Shown: positions 145 through 21,124 of the stretch, piece by piece
How positions within the stretch are numbered: the first letter of the stretch is position 1
Layout: each line of letters begins with the position of its first letter
Source of the DNA: a virus
IMG/VR virus record: IMGVR_UViG_3300042375_001097
Span: 1-22,143 of that record
Strand: one strand, 5' to 3'
Length of the DNA stretch: 22,143 bases
The notes under the pieces: model-generated
Database searches by the model: none
What the model saw: only the letters and a program-made list of their open reading frames with translations
Told to the model about the DNA's origin: nothing
Position numbers and translations under genes: made by a program

Positions 145-387
145 ATGACCATCAACGCCATCAGCCGCCAGCTCCGCCTCACCTCCATTCCCATGGTTCA
201 CAGCCCGGGAATGATCCGCTGGATCCTCGCCACCATCGCCCCGTTCGATCAACCCAAGGCGATCGACCTGCTCGAAGCGATGGGGCTGAAGACCGAAGAC
301 GCCGTGCGTATCGCGGCCAAGGATCCAACCATCCACATCGCCTACAACGACGAGGACGGCACGGTGCTGTTCTCCTTCGACGCCTGA
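145..387 (+). CDS. Hypothetical small protein (80 aa)
   Basis: Unrecognised 80-residue protein. The start is supported by the AACACGACC context directly before ATG, which recurs at many starts in this arm; no Shine-Dalgarno is visible. It has an amphipathic N-terminal half (ISRQLRL, IRWILATI) and an acidic C-terminus with a DEDGTVLFSF strand-like segment. It has no Cys and no membrane segment, so it is probably a small cytoplasmic protein. The next gene starts 24 bases downstream with the same leader. Function unknown; position among variable small phage genes suggests an accessory or host-takeover role, which is only an inference. Confidence 0.65.
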   Translation: MTINAISRQLRLTSIPMVHSPGMIRWILATIAPFDQPKAIDLLEAMGLKTEDAVRIAAKDPTIHIAYNDEDGTVLFSFDA

Positions 388-411
388 ATTTCAAACCGAC
401 CAAACACGACC

Positions 412-663
412 ATGAGAATCGCCATCGAAACCGAAACCCGCCAAGTCGAAGACAACGGATGGGTGAACGCCGGATCTTACCATTCCGCCATGTTTGCCCA
501 CCCCCAACCCGTGAGCGTCAAGGGGTGTCCCGCCGGGCGCTCACAGAAGTCCATGCAGGACGCAATCAACGACCTCGTTCGCCGGACGAATGACGAGAGC
601 GGAACGTGCATGATTCCGGCTGATTTCGCCATCACCCGCCACAACGGACAACCTACCGCCTGA
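412..663 (+). CDS. Hypothetical small protein (83 aa)
   Basis: Unrecognised 83-residue protein. ATG 412 is immediately preceded by AAACACGACC, the recurrent start context of this arm. It contains two Cys residues (in VKGCPAG and SGTCMIP), no metal-binding pattern and no membrane span. It ends in TGA 661-663, and the CTGACAGAACATCAAC element begins three bases later. Same-strand neighbours lie within about 35 bases, consistent with one transcript. Function unknown. Confidence 0.65.
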   Translation: MRIAIETETRQVEDNGWVNAGSYHSAMFAHPQPVSVKGCPAGRSQKSMQDAINDLVRRTNDESGTCMIPADFAITRHNGQPTA

Positions 664-665
664 TC

Positions 666-681
666 CTGACAGAACATCAAC
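666..681 (+). promoter_or_regulatory. Recurrent junction element (CAGAACATCAA)
   Basis: CTGACAGAACATCAAC lies between the stop at 663 and the start at 699. It is one of a set of plus-strand copies of CAGAACATMAA in gene junctions. The role is unknown; it lies too close to the start to be read simply as a -35 box. Confidence 0.5.
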
Positions 682-698
682 AATTGAATCAAACGACC

Positions 699-929
699 AT
701 GAAACAACACCAATACACCATCCTCGCCGACCTCGCGGCGAACCTGACCCTGACCTTCGCGGTCATCGCCTGCATCGCCTGCATGGGTGCCATGGCAGCG
801 CCGCTGATCGCCATGGCCGCGTTCGCGCCGCTCCTCGGCGTGTTCTTCGCCTCCATGGCAATGTCCTACGTCTCAGAGCTCGTTAGCCAATGGCTGCACG
901 AGCAAGCCTACCGTCAATCGCATCGCTGA
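699..929 (+). CDS. Small membrane protein, probably two spans (76 aa)
   Basis: The 76-residue product has a hydrophobic centre: residues about 12-60 are dominated by Leu, Ala, Val, Ile and Met (ALIACIACMGAMAAP-like composition) and can form two membrane helices. The C-terminus is hydrophilic (QWLHEQAYRQSHR). The start is placed at ATG 699 because of the preceding AAACGACC context; an in-frame TTG at 684 lacks it. It is expected in the inner membrane. It could be a superinfection-exclusion or other membrane accessory protein, but nothing in the sequence shows a function. It is remote from the lysis cassette on the minus strand, so a holin role is less likely. Confidence 0.65.
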   Translation: MKQHQYTILADLAANLTLTFAVIACIACMGAMAAPLIAMAAFAPLLGVFFASMAMSYVSELVSQWLHEQAYRQSHR

Positions 930-936
930 AATCTCC

Positions 937-947
937 CAGAACACCAA
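937..947 (+). promoter_or_regulatory. Variant of the recurrent junction element
   Basis: CAGAACACCAA differs from the CAGAACATCAA consensus at one base. It begins 7 bases after the stop at 929 and precedes the AACACACGACC-ATG start at 961. Confidence 0.35.
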
Positions 948-960
948 CAAACACACGACC

Positions 961-1500
961 ATGAAAAAAGAACCAAAACGCAACGCCCGCCGGATCCTGC
1001 TCATCGACAAATTCATCACGCTCGACAAGGCATTCGGCGAATACCCTGACGTGTTCCTCGCCACCGTGGCAGTCCTCGACGACGAGACCAACACCCCGCG
1101 CAACTGGAGCCGCCCCTATCAAGAGGATCGCATCGCGGGCGATTGCGGTGCTTTCACCGTCCGCGCATTCCGCACGTCATTTGGCGACGGGTGCAAGATA
1201 CTTTCCAGCGTCAACGCCCGCGCCGTGAAAAGCGACAACCCGACAGAATACGAGGAATGCGCCAAGGCGCTGAAAGGCTACGCCAAGCGCCAATCTGACC
1301 TCTACGACAAGGTCGGCGGCACGAGCGATTCCGTGGACGGGCTCATCCGTCAAATCCTCTGCCTCGGAGTTTCTGAGGTTTTCGAGCGGGCCGACGGTGA
1401 CACTGAAAGCTGGCTTCAGAAGGGCGATTGGAAACGCTCGTCCACCGGCGACCTTGCAAACCGCCTGCGCCGTGCATTCGCGCAAACCGCCGCCGCCTGA
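961..1500 (+). CDS. Hypothetical protein (179 aa)
   Basis: Unrecognised 179-residue soluble protein, the longest of the first accessory genes. ATG 961 follows ACACACGACC. The N-terminus is strongly basic (KKEPKRNARR), followed by a mixed domain with three Cys residues (GDCGAF, GDGCKI, YEECAKAL) and a C-terminal helical section rich in Arg/Asp. There is no Walker, HTH or nuclease motif that I can recognise. It ends in TGA at 1498-1500, immediately before a junction element and hairpin. It is cotranscribed with its neighbours by spacing; function unknown. Confidence 0.65.
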   Translation: MKKEPKRNARRILLIDKFITLDKAFGEYPDVFLATVAVLDDETNTPRNWSRPYQEDRIAGDCGAFTVRAFRTSFGDGCKILSSVNARAVKSDNPTEYEECAKALKGYAKRQSDLYDKVGGTSDSVDGLIRQILCLGVSEVFERADGDTESWLQKGDWKRSSTGDLANRLRRAFAQTAAA

Positions 1501-1503
1501 CCC

Positions 1504-1520
1504 CTGACAGAACATCAACC
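1504..1520 (+). promoter_or_regulatory. Recurrent junction element (17-base form)
   Basis: CTGACAGAACATCAACC starts four bases after the stop at 1500. The same 17 bases occur inside the helicase gene at 15557-15573. A GC hairpin follows directly. Confidence 0.5.
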
Positions 1521-1521
1521 C

Positions 1522-1544
1522 GCCCGGGGTTCCATCCCCCGGGC
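1522..1544 (+). other. Intergenic GC hairpin next to the junction element
   Basis: Perfect 8-base stem GCCCGGGG (1522-1529) / CCCCGGGC (1537-1544) with a 7-base loop. It lacks a T-run. It lies between the element at 1504 and the start at 1563. Confidence 0.6.
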
Positions 1545-1562
1545 AAACCTCAAACGACCATC

Positions 1563-1670
1563 ATGAAACACCTCCGCGCCATCGCCCTATTTTCATCATT
1601 CGCCATGACGCCGATCGCGCTTGGCTACGGCATCACCAAGCTCGCCATCATCATCTCCGAGAACCTCTAA
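1563..1670 (+). CDS. Very small single-span membrane peptide (35 aa)
   Basis: ATG 1563 to TAA 1668-1670 encodes 35 residues, starting MKHLRAIALFSSFAM and ending IIISENL. The hydrophobic stretch (about residues 6-31) with basic residues at the N-terminus suits one membrane helix or a signal-like peptide. The start lies in a CAAACGACCATCATG context, a shifted version of the arm's usual start context. It is flanked by genes on the same strand at 11 bases or less downstream. Function unknown. The short length lowers confidence, but the leader and tight packing support it. Confidence 0.5.
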   Translation: MKHLRAIALFSSFAMTPIALGYGITKLAIIISENL

Positions 1671-1681
1671 ACACTACCATT

Positions 1682-1966
1682 ATGAAACTCATCACCGGAA
1701 ACACCTACCCAGTCAAAGAGGAGATAAAAGCCCTCGGCGGAACGTGGAGCAAGGCCAGCAAAGGCTGGCTTGTGCCTGACGACAAGGCGGACGAAGCCCG
1801 CGCCATTGTGGCCGGGGCCGGACCCTCCGCGCCCTACACTCCCAAGCGGTGCCGTGCAACGAGCCGCTATCGCTCGAACGTCTATCAATTTGCCGGAGGC
1901 GCGGAGGTTTACCGCAACAAATCAGGACGCTGCGAGGACGCGCCGTGCTGCGGCTGCTGCTCTTAA
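1682..1966 (+). CDS. Phage protein with an ALGGTW repeat-like N-terminus and Cys-rich tail (94 aa)
   Basis: The N-terminal 30 residues (ITGNTYPVKEEIKALGGTW, then KASKGWLVP) match a pattern common in phage and plasmid proteins, similar in form to DUF5710-type segments (…KALGA-W-…-W-VP), whose role is not established. The middle is Arg/Tyr-rich, and the protein ends in a Cys cluster, CEDAPCCGCCS, with five Cys in eleven residues, which may bind metal. The start is ATG 1682, after ACACTACCATT, a weaker form of the arm's usual context. It is a small cytoplasmic protein in the accessory operon. No function can be assigned. Confidence 0.6.
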   Translation: MKLITGNTYPVKEEIKALGGTWSKASKGWLVPDDKADEARAIVAGAGPSAPYTPKRCRATSRYRSNVYQFAGGAEVYRNKSGRCEDAPCCGCCS

Positions 1967-1990
1967 CTCTCACCCACCAACATCAACACC

Positions 1991-2164
1991 ATGACACCAG
2001 AACCATACCAAATCATCGCCCGCCTGCTTTTTTTCTCCGAGTATCTCCGACTGCGCCGGATGGTCCGCGAGGACATCGCCCACGCCATTCAATTCCCCGG
2101 CGGCGGCATCGCGGCCCGCTTGGAAAAAGCCTCCCACCACCTCCGCGTCCAATACGGAAAATAG
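1991..2164 (+). CDS. Hypothetical small protein (57 aa)
   Basis: ATG 1991 to TAG 2162-2164 encodes 57 residues, MTPEPYQIIARLLFFSEYL at the N-terminus and HHLRVQYGK at the C-terminus. ATG follows CAACATCAACACC, a leader also seen before the start at 4307. It has an Arg-rich centre (LRLRRMVRED) and a Gly-Gly-Gly turn (FPGGGIAARL), so it looks like a small helical protein, possibly nucleic-acid binding. Codon use fits its neighbours and the reading frame is clean. Function unknown. Confidence 0.5.
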   Translation: MTPEPYQIIARLLFFSEYLRLRRMVREDIAHAIQFPGGGIAARLEKASHHLRVQYGK

Positions 2165-2185
2165 CATTATTCACAATTCTATTCT

Positions 2186-2200
2186 TGCCAGAACATCAAG
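2186..2200 (+). promoter_or_regulatory. Recurrent junction element
   Basis: TTGCCAGAACATCAAG lies in the 97-base gap between 2164 and 2262, with a hairpin at 2221 and an AACACGACC-ATG start downstream. The order element, hairpin, leader is the same as in the 1500-1563 junction. Confidence 0.5.
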
Positions 2201-2220
2201 CCAGCCCTACAACTCCCTAA

Positions 2221-2234
2221 GTCACCTGAGTGAC
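2221..2234 (+). other. Small intergenic hairpin
   Basis: GTCAC (2221-2225) / GTGAC (2230-2234) with a CTGA loop, between the junction element and the start at 2262. There is no T-run. Confidence 0.4.
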
Positions 2235-2261
2235 GCCAGAAACGACCAACCAAACACGACC

Positions 2262-3038
2262 ATGGAAACCAACATTGACCGCATCAAAGACAAACTCGCC
2301 AAGCTCCTGCGCCTCGGCGAAAACGCCGCCGCCACCGATGGCGAAATCACCAACGCCCTGAGCATGGCCGCCGCGCTGATGGCAAAGCACCAACTCACCC
2401 GTGAGGACATCGACACCAACGCCGCCGACCCAATCGCCAAGGTGACAGTCGGCAGACACTACGCCTTCACCAAGGGCGCGAACCTCACGACGTGGGAAAA
2501 CCTCATCCAGCATTTCGTCTGCGAGTTTATTGGAAGCGTCGCCTGCTACAACGCCGGGAAAATGCAGGCCCGCCGCAACGGGATCGCGGTGGACGGCGGG
2601 AAGCAGGCCAATGCGCTCGTCTTCTATGGCAGCGACGACGACGCCCGCGCAGCCGTGGCATTGTTTGAGGAATTGTCCTATTCAATCTCCGCGATGGCAA
2701 TCATCCGGTGGGGATCATGGGCGCGGGGCGACGGTGCCGCTTATGCCTACGGCTTCGCGCAAGGATTGCGCGACGCCAACAAAGTCGCCAAGCGTGAGCT
2801 TCTCAACACTGACCCGACGACCTCCGCCCTCATCGTCAAATCCGGCGAGACATCGCTGGCTATCGTCGCCAAGGGCAAGGCATGGCTCGCCGCGACTCAT
2901 GGCGTGCAACTCCAATCCCGCTCCGGACGCCGGACCAACTTCTCCTCCTCCAATGCTGGCAGCGCCATGAGCGAGGGACGGCGCGACGGTGCCAACTACA
3001 ACGTCAACCGCCCGGGCGCTCGCCACGCCATCGCCTGA
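2262..3038 (+). CDS. DUF2786-type phage protein (258 aa)
   Basis: The N-terminal 50 residues show the DUF2786 pattern: IKDKLAKLLRLGENAAATD, an EI-x-NALSMAAALMAKHQL helix, then a short linker. The rest resembles the domain that usually follows DUF2786 in phage and bacterial proteins (W-x-x-LI-x-x-F-C-E-F, then a central FYGSDDDARAAVALFEEL and a Y-A-Y-GFAQGLRDA segment). The family is common in phages, and its molecular role is not established. ATG 2262 follows AAACACGACC. It is the largest gene of the left arm and ends 77 bases before the next start. Soluble and cytoplasmic by composition. Confidence 0.8.
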   Translation: METNIDRIKDKLAKLLRLGENAAATDGEITNALSMAAALMAKHQLTREDIDTNAADPIAKVTVGRHYAFTKGANLTTWENLIQHFVCEFIGSVACYNAGKMQARRNGIAVDGGKQANALVFYGSDDDARAAVALFEELSYSISAMAIIRWGSWARGDGAAYAYGFAQGLRDANKVAKRELLNTDPTTSALIVKSGETSLAIVAKGKAWLAATHGVQLQSRSGRRTNFSSSNAGSAMSEGRRDGANYNVNRPGARHAIA

Positions 3039-3070
3039 CCGCCTGACGAGCCCGGGTGACACCGGACGAA

Positions 3071-3084
3071 ACGCTGCGAAGCGT
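3071..3084 (+). other. Small intergenic hairpin
   Basis: ACGCT (3071-3075) / AGCGT (3080-3084) with a GCGA tetraloop, in the 77-base gap between 3038 and 3116. There is no T-run, and the junction element is absent here. Confidence 0.35.
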
Positions 3085-3115
3085 CGCGGAAGTCAACACT
3101 CCCCACCACACCAAA

Positions 3116-3520
3116 ATGAAAACGACACAACACACTCCCGGCCCTTGGGAATTTGATCCCGCCATTGACACATTTAATATCGGAACGATTTCCGTGGGTC
3201 CAGACCCAGAAAACTATCCTGTCGCTCACGTCGAGTCATGGACTGATGGCGGGACTGATTGCGACGAGGCAAAAACAGCCCTTGCTAACGCCCGCCTGAT
3301 CGCCGCCGCTCCTGAGCTCCTCGCCGCGCTGGAGCTCATCTACGCGAACGCCGCCGAATCGCCGGAATGGATCCGTGCATCCATCGCCCCCGCCATCCTC
3401 AAAGCCACCCGTTCCGCCTCATGCACCTGCGAGTCGGAATGTTCCGGCCCCGTCCCGCCCTACTGCTCCGAGCACGATGGCGATTACTCCGCATTCCTCG
3501 CCTTCAACAACTGCGACTGA
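3116..3520 (+). CDS. Conserved phage protein of the HTPGPW / NARLIAAAPELL family (134 aa)
   Basis: It starts MKTTQHTPGPWEFD and contains EAKTALANARLIAAAPELLAALEL. Both are signatures of a small protein found in very many phages and prophages, with no established function. The C-terminal third is Cys-rich (SCTCESECSGPVPPYCSEHD), with five Cys that may hold a metal. ATG 3116 is chosen over an upstream in-frame start at 3056 because the family begins at this Met. An A-rich leader (CACACCAAA) precedes it, without Shine-Dalgarno. Same-strand operon neighbours lie on both sides. Confidence 0.75.
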   Translation: MKTTQHTPGPWEFDPAIDTFNIGTISVGPDPENYPVAHVESWTDGGTDCDEAKTALANARLIAAAPELLAALELIYANAAESPEWIRASIAPAILKATRSASCTCESECSGPVPPYCSEHDGDYSAFLAFNNCD

Positions 3521-3544
3521 TACCACTCTCCAACCAACACGACC

Positions 3545-3898
3545 ATGAACACCCAAACCGACGAGTTTGAAATCTCCGCCCGCCTCTCCCACAAATACGT
3601 CAGCGGATGGAATCACCTCGACCAGTGGCATCCGGTAGGAATCGCCCGCCCCGTCCCGACCGGGAGACCATCCCGCTGGGACGAGAATGGCGAGAGTTTC
3701 CGCCGTTTCGAGCTTCTGGAAGTCAACGCCGGGAACACCCGGCCCGAGAACGTCAAGCGGGCGATCACCGACACCATGCAGACCGGGTGCCGCTGCGAGC
3801 ACGATTGCTGCGGACACGTCCAAAGCTCAGTCTCCCGCGTCCGCCGGATCCGCAATAACCTTTACGCCGTGACCGTTCGCGGCTATCGCAACCTCTGA
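3545..3898 (+). CDS. Hypothetical protein with a Cys/His cluster (117 aa)
   Basis: Unrecognised 117-residue protein. ATG 3545 follows CAACACGACC. A CRCEHDCCGHVQ segment at about residues 83-94 carries four Cys and two His, and resembles the CTCESEC segment of the preceding gene, so the two proteins may share a small metal-binding or disulphide module. The C-terminus (RVRRIRNNLYAVTVRGYRNL) is basic and strand-forming. It lies 24 bases after the previous stop and 17 before the next start, clearly within one transcript. Function unknown. Confidence 0.65.
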   Translation: MNTQTDEFEISARLSHKYVSGWNHLDQWHPVGIARPVPTGRPSRWDENGESFRRFELLEVNAGNTRPENVKRAITDTMQTGCRCEHDCCGHVQSSVSRVRRIRNNLYAVTVRGYRNL

Positions 3899-3915
3899 CC
3901 AAAAACAACACGACC

Positions 3916-4245
3916 ATGAAAACACAAAACAACTGGAAGCCCGTCATCGAATCGCTTTTCTCCGCCCTCGCCAACGCGGAAATCACCGTGGACGAGGTGG
4001 ACAACGGCGGCGACGAAACCACCACCGACCCCGCTGAATTCCTCGACGAGGCCACCGCCTGCGACGAGTGCCGCGTGCTCGTCCGAATCCCGGGTGAGAC
4101 TCGCCGCCACACTCTCCTGATCGTCCTCGGAAACGAGCCGTTCGAGACCGTTTCGGACTACTCCCAGCATCCCCTCCTCGACGCCACACTCGAAGCGTGG
4201 AGCGAGTCATGGGAAGGCAAGCCCTGCCCCACCATCGAAGCCTGA
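3916..4245 (+). CDS. Hypothetical acidic protein (109 aa)
   Basis: A 109-residue strongly acidic protein with many Asp/Glu through residues 20-75 (VDEVDNGGDETTTDPAEFLDEA and onward; given in part). It has three Cys, two in a CDEC pair. ATG 3916 follows AACACGACC. Acidic small early proteins in phages are sometimes DNA mimics that inhibit host nucleic-acid-binding proteins; this is a possibility suggested only by charge. It is followed by a hairpin and a junction element. Function unknown. Confidence 0.65.
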   Translation: MKTQNNWKPVIESLFSALANAEITVDEVDNGGDETTTDPAEFLDEATACDECRVLVRIPGETRRHTLLIVLGNEPFETVSDYSQHPLLDATLEAWSESWEGKPCPTIEA

Positions 4246-4257
4246 CACACACTCCCG

Positions 4258-4280
4258 GGCGGAGGTCCAACCCCTCCGCC
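4258..4280 (+). other. Intergenic GC hairpin
   Basis: Perfect 8-base stem GGCGGAGG (4258-4265) / CCTCCGCC (4273-4280) with a 7-base loop. There is no T-run. The junction element follows 11 bases later and the next start is at 4307. Confidence 0.6.
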
Positions 4281-4291
4281 TCACACCTTCA

Positions 4292-4302
4292 CAGAACATC
4301 AA
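4292..4302 (+). promoter_or_regulatory. Recurrent junction element
   Basis: CAGAACATCAA, extended upstream as TTCACAGAACAT. It ends four bases before ATG 4307. At this distance it must lie in the untranslated leader or in the initiation region itself. Confidence 0.5.
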
Positions 4303-4306
4303 CACC

Positions 4307-4561
4307 ATGGACAACATCACACTCCCGACCATCCACTCCAACGGCACCAGCCGGAACTCTCTCCAAGAGGATTACGACGCCGCCGCCCACGCCTTCGAGG
4401 ACTTCATCGACCGATGGGGCGATGTCGAATTCAACGCCCGCGACTACTACGTCGTGGACGGCGCTTGGTCGAAAGCTCTCGAAGAGCGCGAGACCATGAA
4501 TCGGAAGATCCGCGACATCCGCATCTACATGCAAACCATCCGCGAACACCTCCACTCATGA
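4307..4561 (+). CDS. Hypothetical small protein (84 aa)
   Basis: Unrecognised 84-residue protein. Residues 20-84 are mostly helical and charged (YDAAAHAFEDFIDRW, then KALEERETMNRKIRDIRIY), compatible with a two-helix hairpin or short coiled coil. ATG 4307 follows ACATCAACACC. Its TGA (4559-4561) overlaps the ATG of the next gene as ATGA, so translation is coupled to the three paralogous genes that follow. Function unknown. Confidence 0.6.
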   Translation: MDNITLPTIHSNGTSRNSLQEDYDAAAHAFEDFIDRWGDVEFNARDYYVVDGAWSKALEERETMNRKIRDIRIYMQTIREHLHS

Positions 4562-4764
4562 GCATACAACAACCGAAACTCGCCCGGGGGGTCAACCTCT
4601 CCGACGACGAGGTCCGCGCCCTCACCGCGCTGGCGAGACACTACAAAGCACTCTCCCGTTCCGGCCCGACGACCGGGGAACCCTCATGGCGAGTCCTCGT
4701 CATGGCGATCGCTTCCGGCGAAATCACACTCTCCCGCACCCGCGCAACCAGAATCTTAAAATGA
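4558..4764 (+). CDS. PSWRVLV-family protein, copy 1 of 3 (68 aa)
   Basis: First of three adjacent paralogues. Shared core: LS-x5-LxxLA, then RxGPTxGxPSWRVLV, then IA-x-G-x2-T. This copy carries VNLSDDEVRALTALARHY, SGPTTGEPSWRVLVMAI and ends TRATRILK. The pattern (helix, conserved GPTxGxPSW turn, helix, short strand) looks like a small DNA- or protein-binding fold, but I do not recognise a named family with a known function. The start is fixed by the ATGA overlap with 4307-4561; its own TGA overlaps the next ATG. No Shine-Dalgarno; initiation is probably by coupling. Confidence 0.65.
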   Translation: MSIQQPKLARGVNLSDDEVRALTALARHYKALSRSGPTTGEPSWRVLVMAIASGEITLSRTRATRILK

Positions 4765-4955
4765 AAAAAATCGCATCATCCATCAAACTCTCCCCCGATC
4801 AAGTCGGGAGGCTCAACGAACTCGCCGCCGATCTTGGGGCGCATGCCCGCACCGGCCCAACCTCCGGCGAGCCGTCATGGCGCGTCCTTGTCGCCGCGAT
4901 TGCCGATGGCGAGGTCACACTCTCCCGCGTTCATCCCGTAAGAATCCTGAAATGA
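4761..4955 (+). CDS. PSWRVLV-family protein, copy 2 of 3 (64 aa)
   Basis: Second paralogue: IKLSPDQVGRLNELAADLG, RTGPTSGEPSWRVLVAAIA, ending HPVRILK. It is closer to copy 3 than to copy 1 in the N-terminal helix (LSPxQ) and shares with copy 1 the C-terminal RILK. Its start ATG overlaps the TGA of copy 1, and its TGA overlaps the ATG of copy 3, by the same AAATGA arrangement. This points to tandem duplication that included the junction. Small, soluble, probably oligomeric with its paralogues; function unknown. Confidence 0.65.
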   Translation: MKKIASSIKLSPDQVGRLNELAADLGAHARTGPTSGEPSWRVLVAAIADGEVTLSRVHPVRILK

Positions 4956-5374
4956 AAACACCCGTCACCGCCCTGCGGCTATCTCCCGCGCAAATCGCGA
5001 AGCTCAACAGCATCGCCACCGCTCACGGGACACTCTCCCGCACCGGACCAACGTCAGGACTACCCTCGTGGCGCGTCCTCGTCGCCGACATCGCCGACGG
5101 TCGCCTCACCGTGAAGGATCCGGCGAAACGCTGGGAACCCAAGGAGCCCAAGGAAAAGAAAAAGCGCAAACCCTTCCGCGCACACCCGAGGTTCGCCGCG
5201 AAATGGTGGAAACCCACCGAGATGGACGACATGCCCGTCGCCGACGCCCTCGCCGCCAGCGGCTACCCGCTCGACGAGCTCGTGGCGGCAGGCATGAAAC
5301 TCGTGGACGACGGCGCGAACCTCATCACCCCTCCCGAATGGACCGGGTGGGCATGGAAGGAGGAGGAGGGATGA
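4952..5374 (+). CDS. PSWRVLV-family protein, copy 3 of 3, with an added C-terminal domain (140 aa)
   Basis: Residues 1-57 repeat the family core (LRLSPAQIAKLNSIATAHG, RTGPTSGLPSWRVLVADIA). A Lys/Pro/Glu-rich linker follows at about 60-80 (KEPKEKKKRKPF), then an unrelated C-terminal domain with Trp-rich segments (AAKWWKP, PPEWTGWAWKEEEG) and a helix PVADALAASGYPLDELVAAG. It is therefore a two-domain version of the same module. The basic linker would suit nucleic-acid contact. It is the last gene of the left plus-strand cluster, ending 42 bases before a strong terminator. Function unknown. Confidence 0.7.
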   Translation: MKTPVTALRLSPAQIAKLNSIATAHGTLSRTGPTSGLPSWRVLVADIADGRLTVKDPAKRWEPKEPKEKKKRKPFRAHPRFAAKWWKPTEMDDMPVADALAASGYPLDELVAAGMKLVDDGANLITPPEWTGWAWKEEEG

Positions 5375-5383
5375 AGGCGCGTC

Positions 5384-5400
5384 TTTAATCGCCGATTAAA
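5384..5400. repeat. Perfect AT-rich inverted repeat
   Basis: TTTAATC (5384-5390) / GATTAAA (5394-5400) around GCC, between the last left-arm gene and the terminator. It could be a protein-binding operator or the first part of the termination region. Confidence 0.4.
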
Positions 5401-5416
5401 TCCCTCCGACACTAAG

Positions 5417-5448
5417 GCCGGGCCGCCCTCAAAAGCGCCCGGCTTTTT
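5417..5448 (+). terminator. Rho-independent terminator of the left plus-strand operon
   Basis: Seven-base stem GCCGGGC (5417-5423) / GCCCGGC (5437-5443), 13-base loop, then TTTTT (5444-5448). It follows the last gene of the cluster and isolates it from the attachment region and the convergent integrase gene. Confidence 0.85.
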
Positions 5449-5453
5449 CGTAG

Positions 5454-5476
5454 GTGGAGAACATCCGGAGAACCAC
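5454..5476. repeat. Left GAGAAC repeat pair (candidate integrase arm sites)
   Basis: GTGGAGAACATCC followed by GGAGAACCAC. The GAGAAC hexamers begin at 5457 and 5468, 11 bases apart (about one helical turn). The same arrangement recurs at 5627 on the other side of the tRNA-like core. Flanking direct repeats of this kind are typical of arm-type binding sites of tyrosine integrases; that role is inferred. Confidence 0.5.
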
Positions 5477-5501: not shown

Positions 5502-5526
5502 TAGCGGCTGTGGGACTCGAACCCGC
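5502..5526 (-). other. attP: attP-like core: 3' end of a tRNA (or tmRNA) gene
   Basis: Read on the minus strand, this is a T-arm plus acceptor 3' half. Stem GCGGG (5526-5522), loop TTCGAGT (5521-5515), stem CCCAC (5514-5510, one mismatch), acceptor AGCCGCT (5509-5503) and discriminator A (5502). No 5' half of a tRNA is present on either side. A tRNA 3' end beside an integrase gene is the usual form of a phage attachment core. The pairing 5' acceptor of the host gene would read close to AGCGGCT; the amino-acid identity cannot be told. Confidence 0.75.
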
Positions 5527-5573: not shown

Positions 5574-6776
5574 TCAGTCGATTCTGGGTTTCTTGTTTTT
5601 TGGTGACTCACCGTGAATCTCGTTTAGTGGAGAACATTTGGAGAACACTGAGAACCATTCTTCACCCTCGGACGGGCTTTTCGCGTCGTTGTAGGAGCGC
5701 CCCGCCTCGCTCTCCGAGTTGCCAGCCTCCATCGCGGTTTTTGCCAGCCCGACAACCGCCGCACGGTAGCTGATGAACGAATGCCGGAGCGCGTTCCGCT
5801 TCCAGCCGCCGATGAACGCCCCGAGCCGGGTGGTCTCGCACAACGAGCCGTGAGTGGATGGTTTCGACGGGTAGAGATGCGGGCCGATGACACCCGTCCC
5901 GGCGATCGGCTCCAGCCACGAACGGAGCGCCGGGGTCATGGTGATGACTCTCCGTTCGCCGGTTTTTGAGGTCTCGCGACGCACGATGATGATGTCCCTG
6001 TCCCACTTGATGTCCTCCCACGCCAGCGGCGGCTTCGTGCTACCCTGCTGCGGGATCACCTCTTCGGTGCGGAGCCCGCCGAGGGCGCATAGAGCGAGCC
6101 ACGGGAGATACTGAGGGCGGACATTGTCGAGGAGGATGCGAAGCTCTCCCGGCGTGTAGGTGGCAGGCACACCCCGGACGACGATCGGCTTGCCGACTCT
6201 CTCCGCTGCGGTCTTTTCGCCATGTGGGAGATACTCCCGCTCGACGCACCACTTGAAGAACGTCACCCATGCCGCCCTGACGTTCTTGCGCGTCCGTGCC
6301 GCGCCCGCGAGCGGCGGCAGGTCGCCCGGGCCGATGTCGCCAAGCGTCATGTCGGGGATCAGGCCGAGGTGCCGCTTGAGCGTCGTGTGATTGTGCGGCG
6401 AGGTTCCGGCGTTGCGCTTCTTCTCCGATAGGAACTCCGCGACGGCTTCCTTGGAGTTCTTTTTCGGAGCTCGCTTGCCATGCCACACGAGGAATTCATC
6501 TACCAGCTTGCAGGAAGGGTCCGCCTCGATGATCCGCTGGCACGCCTTCGCCTGCTCCGGCGTGATCGCGCTCATGTCGAACCCACCCCGGAAGATGCTC
6601 CGGGCGTATTCCATCGCGTCTTTTTTCGCAGCCTCTAACGACGACCGCGTGACGTGCTTGCCGTCGGCCTTGTAGCGCCAATACTCTCTCCCGCTGGGGT
6701 GATTCCACGGATAGACCGAGATGCTCACCGTGCGATATTTGACGACCTCACTCACGGTTTTGATGACCTCACTCAC
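5574..6776 (-). CDS. int: Tyrosine site-specific recombinase / phage integrase (400 aa)
   Basis: It catalyses integration and, with a directionality factor, excision between attP and a host tRNA-type site. The N-terminal part (about 1-90) is an arm-binding and SAM-like region, residues about 90-190 the core-binding domain, and 205-375 the catalytic domain. Active-site residues visible: Arg236 (ALCALGGLRTEEV), Lys271 (SKTGERR), Arg331 (NALRHSF) and Tyr362 (AGRSYND). The usual His of HxxR and the H/W position are both Asn (328 and 353, AGNS), which I associate with Planctomycetes/Verrucomicrobia integrases. The gene ends 48 bases from the tRNA-like core. Its start overlaps the end of the RHH gene by 8 bases, so the two form one minus-strand operon. 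Confidence 0.93.
   Translation of the reverse strand: MSEVIKTVSEVVKYRTVSISVYPWNHPSGREYWRYKADGKHVTRSSLEAAKKDAMEYARSIFRGGFDMSAITPEQAKACQRIIEADPSCKLVDEFLVWHGKRAPKKNSKEAVAEFLSEKKRNAGTSPHNHTTLKRHLGLIPDMTLGDIGPGDLPPLAGAARTRKNVRAAWVTFFKWCVEREYLPHGEKTAAERVGKPIVVRGVPATYTPGELRILLDNVRPQYLPWLALCALGGLRTEEVIPQQGSTKPPLAWEDIKWDRDIIIVRRETSKTGERRVITMTPALRSWLEPIAGTGVIGPHLYPSKPSTHGSLCETTRLGAFIGGWKRNALRHSFISYRAAVVGLAKTAMEAGNSESEAGRSYNDAKSPSEGEEWFSVFSKCSPLNEIHGESPKNKKPRID
5627..5656. repeat. Right GAGAAC repeats (candidate integrase arm sites)
   Basis: GTGGAGAACATTTGGAGAAC and following bases. GAGAAC begins at 5630, 5641 and 5650. The first 22 bases match the left repeat at 5454 except at a few positions. It lies inside the 3' end of the integrase gene, so the sites and the last codons of the gene are shared. 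Confidence 0.5.
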
Positions 6777-6972
6777 GTCTCAGGTAGTATTCGGCGATGG
6801 CTTTCATCAGCGCGTCTTCGACGACTTTCGAGAACGACACTTTGCGGTTCGCGGAAATCTCACGCACCGCTTCGGTTACATCTGGTGGCAGGGAAAACCC
6901 AACTTTCCTGCGCTTCTTGTCGTCCGCGATCGGCGGGCGACCGGAATGGCCTCGAACTGGTTTCGTGTTCAT
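6769..6972 (-). CDS. Ribbon-helix-helix DNA-binding protein, candidate excisionase or int regulator (67 aa)
   Basis: A small RHH (Arc/CopG-like) protein: strand RRKVGFSLPPDV, helix TEAVREISANR and second helix SFSKVVEDALMKAIAEYY. The N-terminal tail contains GHSGRPP, like an AT-hook core, and RHH dimers insert a β-ribbon in the major groove. The start is placed at ATG 6972 (MNTKPVRG); an in-frame ATG at 7002 would add ten residues, including a Pro run encoded by a C9 tract. It is located directly before int and overlaps it, so control of integrase expression or recombination direction is likely. It faces another RHH gene across the control region. Confidence 0.75.
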   Translation of the reverse strand: MNTKPVRGHSGRPPIADDKKRRKVGFSLPPDVTEAVREISANRKVSFSKVVEDALMKAIAEYYLRRE

Positions 6973-6982
6973 TTTTGGAAGT

Positions 6983-6991
6983 GGGGGGGGG
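6983..6991. repeat. G9 homopolymer beside the RHH start
   Basis: Nine consecutive G on the plus strand (C9 on the coding minus strand), between the two possible starts of the RHH gene (6972 and 7002). It would be translated only if the upstream start is used. Homopolymers of this length slip readily. Confidence 0.5.
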
Positions 6992-7005
6992 CGGAGTGAC
7001 ATACG

Positions 7006-7144: not shown

Positions 7145-7345
7145 ATGCCGAGCGTGAAGCAACCCCTCCAGACAACTCCGAGAAAAGCAGGACGCCCGCC
7201 GACGGGCCGCACGAAACAAGTCATCAAAGCGACCGTTGACGAAAAAATCGTCGCCGAGGCCAAGAAAGCGGCGTCCGAAAACGGCGAGTCGTTCGCCGCT
7301 TTCGTCTCCCGGGCAATCCACGCGCAACTGCTACGGATGTCCTGA
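7145..7345 (+). CDS. Ribbon-helix-helix DNA-binding protein, divergent partner (66 aa)
   Basis: RHH fold visible as strand VIKATVDEKI, helix VAEAKKAASENG and helix SFAAFVSRAIHAQLL. The N-terminal arm holds KAGRPPTGRTKQ, the same GRPP motif as in the divergent RHH protein. It is the first gene of the rightward operon and is transcribed away from int across a 140-base control region. This is the position of a Cro- or CI-like switch gene, so it probably represses its own and/or the int promoter. No CI-type repressor is seen between it and int. Leader CCACTCTCCGCCCC has no Shine-Dalgarno. Confidence 0.7.
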   Translation: MPSVKQPLQTTPRKAGRPPTGRTKQVIKATVDEKIVAEAKKAASENGESFAAFVSRAIHAQLLRMS

Positions 7346-7381: not shown

Positions 7382-7633
7382 ATGCTCTCCCTCACCCACC
7401 AGCAAATGACCGGCCTCATTGACGCCGCCCGCGCCGACCTCGTCGCCGAAATGATCCGCGACAACGGCGCGTCGATCCACCTCCTCTCCCCGGCCCAAGC
7501 GGCTGGAATCCTCGACATCCGGCCCAACACCCTGACCCGGCTGCCGATCCCGCGTGTCGCCCTCGACACGAAACTCATCAAATACCGCCTTTCCGACATC
7601 ACCGCCTTCATCGAATCGCGAGTGGAACGATAA
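7382..7633 (+). CDS. MerR/excisionase-like winged helix protein (83 aa)
   Basis: Residues 33-80 fit an HTH_17/excisionase-type winged helix: LLSPAQAAGILDIRPNTLTR (helix-turn-helix), a short wing (IPRVALDTKLIKYRL) and SDITAFIESR, the usual last helix. The N-terminal 30 residues form a separate helix (QQMTGLIDAARADLVAEMI). Such proteins act as phage directionality factors or as transcription regulators. Its place, second in the operon after the RHH gene and near int, suits either. The start is ATG 7382 without a Shine-Dalgarno. It is followed by the longest structured intergenic region of the operon. Confidence 0.75.
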   Translation: MLSLTHQQMTGLIDAARADLVAEMIRDNGASIHLLSPAQAAGILDIRPNTLTRLPIPRVALDTKLIKYRLSDITAFIESRVER

Positions 7634-12967: not shown

Positions 12968-13283
12968 CATTGATTTATTTGCGGGCTTTGACCCCGATGA
13001 TTACGAACTCATAACGATGGATGGCTATCACGACTGCATCGTCGGAATCGTCGAACAGTTTGGACGCCCGCCCATCGTCTGCTACGACAAGGCGAAGGTG
13101 CTGGAAAAACTGGTGAATGACGGATGCTCGGAAGAAGAAGCGGACGAGTTCTGGTCCTTCAACCAAATCGGCGCTTGGGCGGGCGATACCACGCCGTGCT
13201 TTATCTCACTGAACGGCCAATCTTATTATCCTGCTAACGCAATAGGCCATCCGACCGGAGAGAAAGGAACCGAAAATGAGTAA
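12960..13283 (+). CDS. Conserved phage protein of the SEEEA-x-E-x-FN-x-GAW type (107 aa)
   Basis: Residues 35-85 (VCYDKAKVLEKLVNDGCSEE, then EADEFWSFNQIGAWAGD) match a small protein found in many phages, with a conserved YD-x-x-K-V, SEEEA and FN-x-x-GAW-x-G-x-x-TP pattern and no assigned function. ATG 12960 is chosen because AAACGACC precedes it, as at the left-arm starts; the gene overlaps its upstream neighbour by 8 bases and the helicase start by 8 bases. Soluble and acidic. Confidence 0.7.
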   Translation: MTDIDLFAGFDPDDYELITMDGYHDCIVGIVEQFGRPPIVCYDKAKVLEKLVNDGCSEEEADEFWSFNQIGAWAGDTTPCFISLNGQSYYPANAIGHPTGEKGTENE

Positions 13284-14451
13284 TCAACAGCAAAGCTTCA
13301 CCGGGTCGGATGCGCCGACTTGTTCATTTTCTTCATCTTCTGCGGATGAGATGACATTGCGAGGCTATCAATCTTCCATCGTTAGCGAGACGCTGACAGC
13401 ACTTGAAACACATTCCCGCGTCGTTGTGGCATGTCCTACCGGATCAGGCAAAACAGTGATCGCAATCCATGGACTACTGCCGAAGCTACCCGGCAAGACA
13501 GCATGGGTGACGCACCGGAAGGAACTAGCAAAGCAAGCCCGCGAATACGGGCGAACCCTCGACGTGTTCATGGCACAAGGGGAAATCACTGGCGAATATG
13601 ATACAATCATCATCGACGAGGGCCACCACGTCTGCGCCGCTCAGTATCGAAAAATCCTTGCTGGCTACCCCTCCGCTAAAATCATCGCGCTGACGGCAAC
13701 ACCCTACCGGCTCGACGGCGTGGGGCTTGGATCGTGTGGCTTCTCTCGGATCGTCCATGGTCCTGATACCTACGACCTGACGGAAGATGGAACACTCTGC
13801 CGCGCTCGGGTCTATATCCCGCGCTCGGAACACACGGCGGCATGGTCGCCGGATGCCGCCGCAAGGCGGATCATCCAAACAGCATTCACGAAGGGAATCG
13901 TCTTCTGCCGATCCGTGCCAGAAGCGCAAGAACTGGCGCAACTTCTGACGGATGCTGGAATCAAGGCCGCAAGCATCGACGGCGCAACCGACCCGAAAAA
14001 ACGGGCGAAACTCTTCCGCAGCTTCGCCAAGGGTAAGCTCAAGATCATGTGTAATCACACCATCTTCACGGAAGGCGTGGACGTGCCAAATGTGGATCTG
14101 GTGGTCTTAAATCGCCACACACTGAGCCGCTGCCTCTGGAAACAGATGATCGGGCGCGGAACGCGGAACGCCCTTGGCAAGACAGAATGCACGGTGCTAG
14201 ACCTCGCTGGAAACGGCGTGCTGCATGGCTCAATCTACGACAGGGAAATCTATGATCTCAACGGCAAGGTGGAATCCACCGAATCCCGAACACTCACACC
14301 AAGCGCGGCCTCTGATGAGGCTGAAAAATACGAACACAACCAAGGAGAGGAACTAAAAGAATGGAAACCACAACCGAAACCAATCAGACTGATCGAGAGC
14401 TTACATCGACTGAAATCCAAATCGCCATTGCACAGATTGAGGACCGCTTGA
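13276..14451 (+). CDS. SF2 DEAD/DEAH-type helicase, first of two (391 aa)
   Basis: A nucleic-acid-dependent ATPase. Motif I CPTGSGKT (residues 53-60), Ia VTHRKELAKQ (78-87), II IIDEGHH (112-118), III LTATPYR (139-145), V FTEGVDVPNV (264-273) and VI KQMIGRGTRN (289-298). It is shorter than the second helicase at 15295, has DEGH instead of DEAH, and lacks that gene's long C-terminal region. An AAAGGA sequence seven bases before ATG 13276 is a proper Shine-Dalgarno, uncommon in this window. Composition is lower in GC and uses more A/T-ending codons than neighbours, suggesting a separate origin. Confidence 0.85.
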   Translation: MSNQQQSFTGSDAPTCSFSSSSADEMTLRGYQSSIVSETLTALETHSRVVVACPTGSGKTVIAIHGLLPKLPGKTAWVTHRKELAKQAREYGRTLDVFMAQGEITGEYDTIIIDEGHHVCAAQYRKILAGYPSAKIIALTATPYRLDGVGLGSCGFSRIVHGPDTYDLTEDGTLCRARVYIPRSEHTAAWSPDAAARRIIQTAFTKGIVFCRSVPEAQELAQLLTDAGIKAASIDGATDPKKRAKLFRSFAKGKLKIMCNHTIFTEGVDVPNVDLVVLNRHTLSRCLWKQMIGRGTRNALGKTECTVLDLAGNGVLHGSIYDREIYDLNGKVESTESRTLTPSAASDEAEKYEHNQGEELKEWKPQPKPIRLIESLHRLKSKSPLHRLRTA

Positions 14452-15242: not shown

Positions 15243-15298
15243 CAAACTGCCGAAAACAACGCGCCGAGCACAAGCGGCTGAGAATGAATACCCCATGA
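15239..15298 (+). CDS. Possible 19-residue relay ORF before the second helicase
   Basis: ATG 15239 overlaps the preceding TGA (ATGA), and the TGA at 15296-15298 overlaps the helicase ATG (ATGA). The peptide is MTNCRKQRAEHKRLRMNTP, highly basic. Such a mini-ORF could carry ribosomes across the 52-base gap and couple helicase translation to upstream genes. It may be chance; there is no other support. Confidence 0.3.
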   Translation: MTNCRKQRAEHKRLRMNTP

Positions 15299-16806
15299 AC
15301 CTCCGCCCCTACCAGAACGACTTCGTCTCCGGCGTCGCCCAAGGCTTCCACGCCGGATTCCGCAGGCAGCTCGGCGTCCTGCCGACAGGAGGCGGCAAGA
15401 CGATCGTTTTCGCCAAGATCGCCCAGCGATTCCACGAGAAGCGCGGCGAGCGCACGCTGATCCTCGCCCACCGGGAGGAACTCATCGACCAAGCGGCGGC
15501 GAAAGTCCAGATGGCGACGGGCCTGATCCCCACCGTCGAAAAGGCGAACCGCCACGCTGACAGAACATCAACCATCGTCGTCGCCAGCATCCAGACGATG
15601 CAGGGCGACCGGCTCGCCACTTGGCCGAAGGATCACTTCGGCCTGATCGTCTGCGACGAGGCCCACCACGTCCTCGCCGACCAGTGGCAGACCACCCTCA
15701 ACCATTTCGACGCCCGCGTCCTCGGCGTGACCGCCACGCCTGATAGAGGCGACAAGAAATCCCTCGCCAAGTATTTCGACAACCTCGCCTACGAGATCGG
15801 AATGATGAAGCTCATCGAAGACGACCACCTCTCCAAGGTTGCCGTCCGATCGGTGCCGCTCCAGATCGACCTCGCCGATGTGAGCTCCACCGGCGGCGAC
15901 TACGACGCCACCCAGCTCGACGCCGCCATCACGCCCTACCTCAAGCAGATCGCTGAGTTCATCGCCCGCGAGTGCGGCGACCGCAAGCGCATAGTCGCCT
16001 TCCTGCCGCTCATCGCCACGTCTCAGCGGTTCGTGGACGAGTGCCGCAAGGCCGGAATCGACGCCCGCCACATCGACGGCAAGAGCGACGACCGCAAGGA
16101 GATCCTCGACGACTACTCGAAGGGAAAATTCCGCTTGCTCTCGAATGCCATGCTGCTCACCGAGGGCTGGGACGAGCCGGGGGTGGATTGCCTCCTCGTC
16201 CTCCGCCCCACCCGCTCCCGCGCCCTCTACGCGCAAATGGTCGGACGCGGCACCCGGCTTTCCCCCGGCAAGAAGAACCTCCTGCTTCTCGACTTCCTCT
16301 GGGCGCACGAGAAGCACGACCTGATGAAGCCCGCATCCCTCGTGGCGAACACCAAGGAGGAGGAGGCGCTCATCACCAAGGCGCTCGCCGAGGGCGACGA
16401 CAAAGACCTCGGCGAAGCCATCATCGACGCCGCTGCCGAGCGCGAAGCCGCCCTCATCCGCGAGATCGCCGCCAACGCCGCCAAGAAGGAACGCTTCATC
16501 TCCCTCGAACACGTCGGCACCCTCCTGAAGGACCAGAAGATGAAGGACTACTCGCCCATCTTCGGCTGGGAGAAAACTCCCGCCACCGAGGGCCAGAAGC
16601 GCGTGCTCGATAAATTCGGCCTGAAGTGCGAAACGAAAGGCGAAGCGTCGATGGTGATGAACCGCCTGTTCGACCGCTCCCGCGCCAAAATGGCGACGAT
16701 CAAGCAGCTCCAATGGCTCGTCCGGATGAAGCACCCGTCGCCGGAGACCGCTACTTTTCAAGAAGCGAAAGATTTCCTCGACGCGAAGTGGAAAAAGACG
16801 GCGTGA
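15295..16806 (+). CDS. SF2 DEAH helicase, second of two (503 aa)
   Basis: Motif Q-like LRPYQNDFV (3-11), I LPTGGGKT (29-36), Ia LAHREELIDQ (57-66), II VCDEAHH (119-125), III VTATPDR (145-151), V LTEGWDEPGVD (288-298) and VI QMVGRGTR (314-321). The C-terminal 170 residues, Ala/Glu/Lys-rich and helical, end in MATIKQLQWLVRMKHPSPE, a module often seen at the ends of phage helicases of this type. It is likely a replication or recombination helicase. GC-rich codon use is typical of the phage backbone. The junction element occurs inside the gene at 15557-15573, and another follows its stop. Confidence 0.88.
   Translation: MNLRPYQNDFVSGVAQGFHAGFRRQLGVLPTGGGKTIVFAKIAQRFHEKRGERTLILAHREELIDQAAAKVQMATGLIPTVEKANRHADRTSTIVVASIQTMQGDRLATWPKDHFGLIVCDEAHHVLADQWQTTLNHFDARVLGVTATPDRGDKKSLAKYFDNLAYEIGMMKLIEDDHLSKVAVRSVPLQIDLADVSSTGGDYDATQLDAAITPYLKQIAEFIARECGDRKRIVAFLPLIATSQRFVDECRKAGIDARHIDGKSDDRKEILDDYSKGKFRLLSNAMLLTEGWDEPGVDCLLVLRPTRSRALYAQMVGRGTRLSPGKKNLLLLDFLWAHEKHDLMKPASLVANTKEEEALITKALAEGDDKDLGEAIIDAAAEREAALIREIAANAAKKERFISLEHVGTLLKDQKMKDYSPIFGWEKTPATEGQKRVLDKFGLKCETKGEASMVMNRLFDRSRAKMATIKQLQWLVRMKHPSPETATFQEAKDFLDAKWKKTA
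15557..15573 (+). promoter_or_regulatory. Junction element copy inside the helicase coding sequence
   Basis: CTGACAGAACATCAACC, identical over 17 bases to 1504-1520. It is read in frame as Ala-Asp-Arg-Thr-Ser-Thr with AGA, ACA and TCA codons, while neighbouring codons for these residues are mostly CGC, ACC and TCC. Confidence 0.45.
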
Positions 16807-20625: not shown

Positions 20626-20696
20626 TTTTGGGGGAGTTTGGGAAATGGGATGAGCATGTAAATTACGCACCAGAGGAGTTTAAGAGCTGTCATCAT
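20622..20696 (-). CDS. Tiny hydrophobic peptide gene (24 aa)
   Basis: ATG 20696 (or 20693) to TGA 20624-20622; it starts MMTALKLLWCVIYMLIPFP and is one hydrophobic segment with a basic end. It is overlapped at both ends: its ATG with the stop of the Pro/Glu-repeat gene (ATGA) and its TGA with the next ATG (ATGA). The consistent overlaps argue for translation, but the length is minimal. Possible membrane peptide or coupling leader. Confidence 0.4.
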   Translation of the reverse strand: MMTALKLLWCVIYMLIPFPKLPQK

Positions 20697-21124
20697 GGCT
20701 CTGGTTCAGGTTCCGGCTCAGGCTCTGGTTCCGGTGTTGGCTCTGGTTCCGGTGTTGGCTCTGGTTCCGGTGTTGGCTCTGGTTCCGGTGGGGCAACGTA
20801 GACAAATGCGGCTCCGTCGAAAACAATGTCCGAGCGGCCAGCGGCGACTGGTGCGCGGCTGGCGAATCGCGGGACAGCGAGCGCGTCGAGGCTGGCGTTG
20901 ACCTGCAAGCCCAATGCGGTATTGGCGGCAAATGTGGCGAGCGTGGCGGGGATGTCGGCGTTCAGCACGGCCAGCAAGCGATCGGTTGGGAGACTCCAGA
21001 ATGCTGCGTTGGTGGTGGCGAGCGTCGAAGCGAGATGGTGCGTGGCTTCGCCTGCTTGCAGGACGAGTTGCTCTTTTGCTGCGAGATCGGCTTCAGCTTG
21101 GGTGAGTTGGCGGATGATTGACAT
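20693..21124 (-). CDS. Tail-associated protein with a C-terminal Pro/Glu repeat (143 aa)
   Basis: Residues 1-112 are helical and Ala/Leu-rich (LTQAEADLAAKEQLVLQAGE; LASTLATTNAAFWSLPTDRL), ending in a short β segment (SDIVFDGAAFVYVAPP). Residues 114-143 are EPEPTP-type repeats made by an 18-base tandem repeat. It follows the tail fibre gene by 5 bases and precedes the lysis genes with an ATGA overlap. It may be a fibre chaperone, a fibre-attached protein or a spacer-bearing wall protein; none is proven. Confidence 0.6.
   Translation of the reverse strand: MSIIRQLTQAEADLAAKEQLVLQAGEATHHLASTLATTNAAFWSLPTDRLLAVLNADIPATLATFAANTALGLQVNASLDALAVPRFASRAPVAAGRSDIVFDGAAFVYVAPPEPEPTPEPEPTPEPEPTPEPEPEPEPEPEP
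20721..20790 (-). repeat. 18-base tandem repeat encoding EPTPEP units
   Basis: About 3.8 copies of GGCTCTGGTTCCGGTGTT (plus strand) at 20721, 20739, 20757 and 20775; shorter related GGCTCTGGTTCC-type units extend the tract to the left end of the gene. In-frame repeats of 18 bases can change number without a frameshift. Confidence 0.75.

Follow-up and report, generated by a model that had tools for sequence, protein, structure and literature searches.

Ribbon-helix-helix (RHH) proteins recognise DNA through a beta-strand, while their helices form the dimer (PMC6547453 and reviews cited there). By the rule given for the RHH strand, a basic residue stands at position 2 or 6 and an uncharged polar residue at position 4 (PMC6547453). 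RHH motifs are also found joined to a WYL domain in RspWYL1, a Type VI-D CRISPR accessory protein that binds ssRNA and in which the motif is atypical and is present twice per chain (PMC6547453). Another WYL protein, Sll7009, was identified as a negative regulator that represses a CRISPR system, and its DNA-binding domain was described as a winged helix-turn-helix (HTH) (PMC10212523).

The DNA analysed here (the window, 22,143 nucleotides) is a 22 kb virus record of a temperate phage. A rightward operon of small genes (about 145-5374) ends with three consecutive genes (copies 1-3; Table 1) that have a domain of approximately 55 residues in common, with neighbouring copies being 53% identical in protein sequence. 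When copy 2 was used as a protein query against the whole record only the three copies were matched (copy 1 at E 1.1e-18 and 58% identity, copy 3 at E 2.3e-16 and 54%). This agrees with a held-out profile, built from relatives outside the window only, which recovered copies 1-3 at E 1e-12 to 3e-15 (copy 1 at E 1e-12) and nothing else, and it bears out the original prediction of three paralogous genes in a row. The repeat has a period of exactly 191 nt, seen twice (192-1, from the 4-nt overlap). Copy 1 ends AGA ATC TTA AAA TGA and copy 2 ends AGA ATC CTG AAA TGA, both reading R-I-L-K-stop and both carrying the AAATGA junction in which the TGA overlaps the next ATG. As the exact period includes the overlap, the repeat unit contained the coupling junction, as had been proposed. 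The gene upstream of copy 1 (4307-4561) is unrelated to the family and is also ATGA-coupled to it. Values of dN/dS among the copies lie between 0.26 and 0.52 and dS is about 1.0-1.5, with synonymous sites near saturation. The duplication is therefore old, and copies 1-3 are real, constrained genes under purifying selection. No Shine-Dalgarno-like sequence precedes any of the three starts and the ACACGACC leader, which is present before six left-arm genes, is absent before copies 1-3; translation is therefore likely to proceed through ATGA coupling.

Table 1. Positions of the three genes and of associated features in the window.
Feature	Position	Strand	Description	Basis
ACACGACCATG motif	137-147, 404-414, 953-963, 2254-2264, 3537-3547, 3908-3918	+		Window scan
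ATGA overlap	4558..4561	+	Stop of gene 4307-4561 / start of copy 1	
Copy 1	4558..4764	+	68 aa, domain-only RHH-like protein, 4-residue N-terminal extension	ORF and translation
ATGA overlap	4761..4764	+	Copy 1 stop / copy 2 start	
Copy 2	4761..4955	+	64 aa, domain-only RHH-like protein	ORF, protein search, AlphaFold2 model
ATGA overlap	4952..4955	+	Copy 2 stop / copy 3 start	
Copy 3	4952..5374	+	140 aa: RHH-like domain, Lys-rich linker and one WW module	
WW module of copy 3	5204..5356	+	About residues 85-135; modelled helix-helix-strand-strand, low confidence	
Probable intrinsic terminator after copy 3	5414..5448	+	GCCGGGC..GCCCGGC TTTTT; fold z -2.27 for 5375-5455	
20-nt direct repeats GTGGAGAACAT..GGAGAAC	5454-5473, 5627-5646	+	Flank attP core	
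attP core	5502..5524	-	23 nt identical to 3' end of tRNA-Leu(CAA), verrucomicrobial genomes	
Tyrosine integrase	5574..6776	-	Convergent with copies 1-3; PHROG integrase E 5e-21	

The family had been described as unnamed, and no Pfam, PHROG or NCBIfam model matched it above its cut-off. Sub-threshold library matches include the RHH types RHH_1, NikA-like, CopG and MazE9; the best score for Pfam RHH_1 was 14.3 bits against a cut-off of 20.5, which is a detection limit and not a fold criterion. When seven family domains were compared, profile against profile, with the N-terminal domains of cyanobacterial WYL regulators, the score was 49.6 over 52 columns (P 3.3e-10); 200 column-shuffled controls reached at most 17.7 and integrase windows at most 17.3. 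The WYL N-termini in this alignment are those of real plasmid proteins. Comparison of the family with CopG, Arc and phage RHH proteins scored 21.5 (P 6e-4; shuffled maximum 11.5) and that of the family together with the WYL N-termini scored 30.1 (P 4.2e-6; shuffled maximum 10.6), the comparison set consisting of CopG and Arc sequences and three other members taken from the loci. Both the family profile and the WYL N-termini match CopG/Arc-type proteins above controls. From these comparisons the domain emerges as a homologue of the N-terminal domain found in cyanobacterial WYL regulators and as a relative, beyond chance, of RHH DNA-binding proteins. The original prediction of an unnamed family holds above the library cut-offs but is in part contradicted by these more distant relations. 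A helix-turn-helix reading of the domain was not supported, with no profile match to HTH proteins. For the cyanobacterial WYL proteins aligned here, the present comparison does not support the winged HTH described for Sll7009. A WYL-type N-terminal domain was also seen in a DUF6262-annotated protein of a Chroococcidiopsis plasmid (L060 / L061 4761-5513).

The AlphaFold2 model of copy 2 contains two helices (12-25 and 40-48), with a pLDDT of about 92 over residues 11-50, but a Foldseek search of two models against solved folds returned nothing significant. This is weak evidence either way since the chain is very small and would be expected to fold as an intertwined dimer. In the monomer model, in which the beta-strand lacks a partner, that strand is not formed. 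Among the PDB entries listed, the RHH antitoxin AtaR has the highest TM-score (0.42-0.43, rmsd 2.4), with an E-value that is not significant. In the alignment, read by eye, strand position 6 is K in copy 2, R in copy 3 and in the relatives L030 and L035, and N in copy 1, which has no basic residue in the strand; K or R thus occupies the last outward strand position in four of the five phage members. Position 4 is small in all five (S, A, S, S, G). The strand chemistry of the phage members would appear close to the RHH rule (PMC6547453).

The window proteins and the cyanobacterial WYL regulators (for example WP_281009563.1, WP_065717510.1, WP_015081684.1) are alike over the whole domain, including the strand, helix A and a G..PS..L...IA core, although the loop is about 5 residues shorter in the WYL regulators. 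The latter also possess a WYL ligand-binding domain, whereas copy 3 has a WW module instead, with no match to a WYL domain, and copies 1 and 2 have nothing beyond the shared domain; the three are therefore not WYL regulators. CopG/Arc-type RHH repressors resemble the family in size and may also share its predicted strand-helix-helix pattern and strand chemistry, but they have an inter-helix loop of about 4-5 residues, compared with about 14 in the family. RspWYL1 has RHH motifs joined to other domains, but no sequence match between it and the window family was found. We regard the family as a new branch within a protein type already known and not as a new system.

Relatives comprise a homologue in one verrucomicrobial phage, another in a prophage and a pair next to a tRNA gene. 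The first came from the DNA surrounding integrase relatives, in which a profile of the window copies identified a 197-aa protein of another phage (L030:12198-12791:-, E 8.5e-15). This gene is convergent with a related integrase and it too is ATGA-coupled, although the gene upstream is not the one seen in the window. When 388 genomes of the phylum were searched with a profile, two real matches emerged: a 239-aa protein (L035/L040) encoded in a prophage that also has terminase genes and a serine recombinase, and a locus adjoining a tRNA-Gln gene (L036/L041) with a second divergent paralogue one gene further on. Further searches of 337, 162, 244 and 244 genomes, partly the same ones, gave no additional genome, and pattern-based scans of viral and genome contigs with the window copies alone gave no close relatives. 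No acceptable relative of copy 2 was present in the phage and plasmid collections, nor of L035 or L030 in the phage collection. Weak genome matches (L037-L039, L043-L049) were judged on inspection to be fragments or chance similarities and were rejected, and matches to L035 in Deinococcus and other plasmids (E >= 1) were not accepted. The family is a rare one, and duplication has occurred in it more than once.

Copy 3 had been thought to have gained its Lys-rich linker and Trp-rich domain. However, L030 and L035 have the same plan, in which the domain is followed by a Lys-rich linker and modules of about 50 residues starting with WW, two in each protein as compared with one in copy 3. A profile of these four outside modules found copy 3 as its best match in the window (E 6e-4); the linker and module of copy 3 are 36% identical to L030 over 59 residues, and when L035 is taken alone the match of the module is weak. 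In 378 Verrucomicrobia genomes searched for the WW module, only the L035 protein already known was found, and none of the libraries searched contained a match. The three copies group together in a tree (support 0.81), with the order among them not resolved (0.40). Since the distant relatives already have the linker and module, the long form is probably ancestral, and by parsimony it most likely predates the window array, with copies 1 and 2 as derived short forms; the gain of a tail by copy 3 is thus not supported.

The attP core downstream of the genes matches the 3' end of tRNA-Leu(CAA) exactly. In the related Verrucomicrobia family this match occurred in 15 of 60 genomes, once in each, and a reversed control gave none, which supports the claim that the copies lie beside attP. 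The direct repeats flanking the core may be arm-type sites of the integrase. Relatives of this integrase (L027-L032; 48-66% identity) come from Verrucomicrobia, including a Prosthecobacter genome. The probable terminator between copy 3 and attP was missed by a simple terminator scan. The DNA to the right of the integrase contains a control region and a rightward replication operon (helicase, primase-helicase).

Divergence among the copies is unevenly distributed, with 4 of 28 residues invariant in the strand and helix A compared with 16 of 25 in the loop and helix B. Such a pattern would be expected of paralogues that have one dimer interface in common and recognise different sites. With a loop and helix B that hardly vary and predicted reading strands that do, different operators are probably bound by the three copies. 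Overall, it is reasonably likely, though far from certain, that the genes encode small dimeric RHH DNA-binding regulators of a temperate verrucomicrobial phage, most likely acting on transcription of the accessory operon or the neighbouring control region. In the DNA major groove, each N-terminal strand would recognise an operator, and helices A and B would build the dimer, while the conserved R-G-PT-G-PSW loop, longer than that of ordinary RHH proteins, may cap helix B and contact the DNA backbone. The copies would probably bind their operators as homodimers, with heterodimer mixing possible, and, being translationally coupled where the accessory operon ends, they would be made in a linked ratio. 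Copies 1 and 2 would be the reading head alone, and the basic linker and WW module of copy 3 may provide a second contact to DNA or to a partner. The heteromeric complex or graded specificity put forward in the original prediction is plausible on this footing. A particular form of it, in which full-length copy 3, bearing a WW effector module, and a pair of head-only paralogues are made in linked amounts through ATGA coupling and form a mixed-dimer set of at most six dimer species, is a doubtful proposition; such species would differ in operator and in number of effector modules and would act as a graded switch on the attP side.

The main alternative is that the proteins are recombination accessory factors, either a directionality factor or attP-architecture proteins, that work with the integrase at attP. 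In the window, about 130 bp separate the end of the operon from the attP core, and two relatives also have a recombinase gene nearby, a related integrase at about 1 kb in L030 and a serine recombinase (PF00239 E 1.3e-31) at about 1 kb in L040. These recombinases, however, are of unrelated classes, the L040 gene begins its own operon, and the integrase relatives L027-L029, L031 and L032 have no family member in their records or genomes. The window also has another excisionase-like HTH gene (7382-7633; HTH_17, E 0.002, below cut-off). Such a role is on balance unlikely.

It is rather improbable that the copies merely provide gene dosage or redundancy, with all of them doing the same job. The near identity of the loop and helix B and the ending shared by copies 1 and 2 are what might be expected of such an arrangement, but the duplication is old, the copies have diverged mainly in helix A and the predicted reading strand, and copy 3 differs in architecture. 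RHH domains are common in antitoxins and an accessory operon of small unknown genes adjoins attP, both of which could be consistent with a variable accessory region that encodes orphan antitoxins or counter-defence proteins. This we regard as very unlikely: PADLOC gave no match at E 0.1 for the three copies or for seven left-arm neighbour genes, no toxin-like neighbour was recognised and the relatives are located in unrelated small-gene operons. The present analysis provides a probable identity for a phage protein family that carried no label, connects that family with the DNA-binding domain of cyanobacterial WYL regulators and offers a compact natural system for testing how related dimeric regulators may retain one interface while the DNA-reading residues change.

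Several further features of the window were observed. The motif ACACGACCATG, which ends in the start codon, stands before six left-operon genes; allowing one mismatch, it has 8 matches in the window compared with 0.47 expected, and none of 100 shuffles reached as many. It was absent from the related loci examined. Since almost no gene of the window has a Shine-Dalgarno sequence, the motif may serve this phage as a signal for translation start or for regulation. In the control region a small gene (6769-7002, minus strand) is RHH-like, with a match to RHH_1 just below cut-off (E 0.0016), and another (7145-7345, plus strand) is RHH-like by eye only; in the related phages L028 and L030 a Cro/C1-type HTH gene occupies the place before the integrase instead. 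Two superfamily 2 helicase-like genes (13276-14451, PHROG DNA helicase E 1.8e-66, and 15295-16806) lie in one replication operon. An ORF adjoining the tail-fibre-like gene (20693-21124, minus strand) has a C-terminus made up of repeated PEPEPTPEPEP units.
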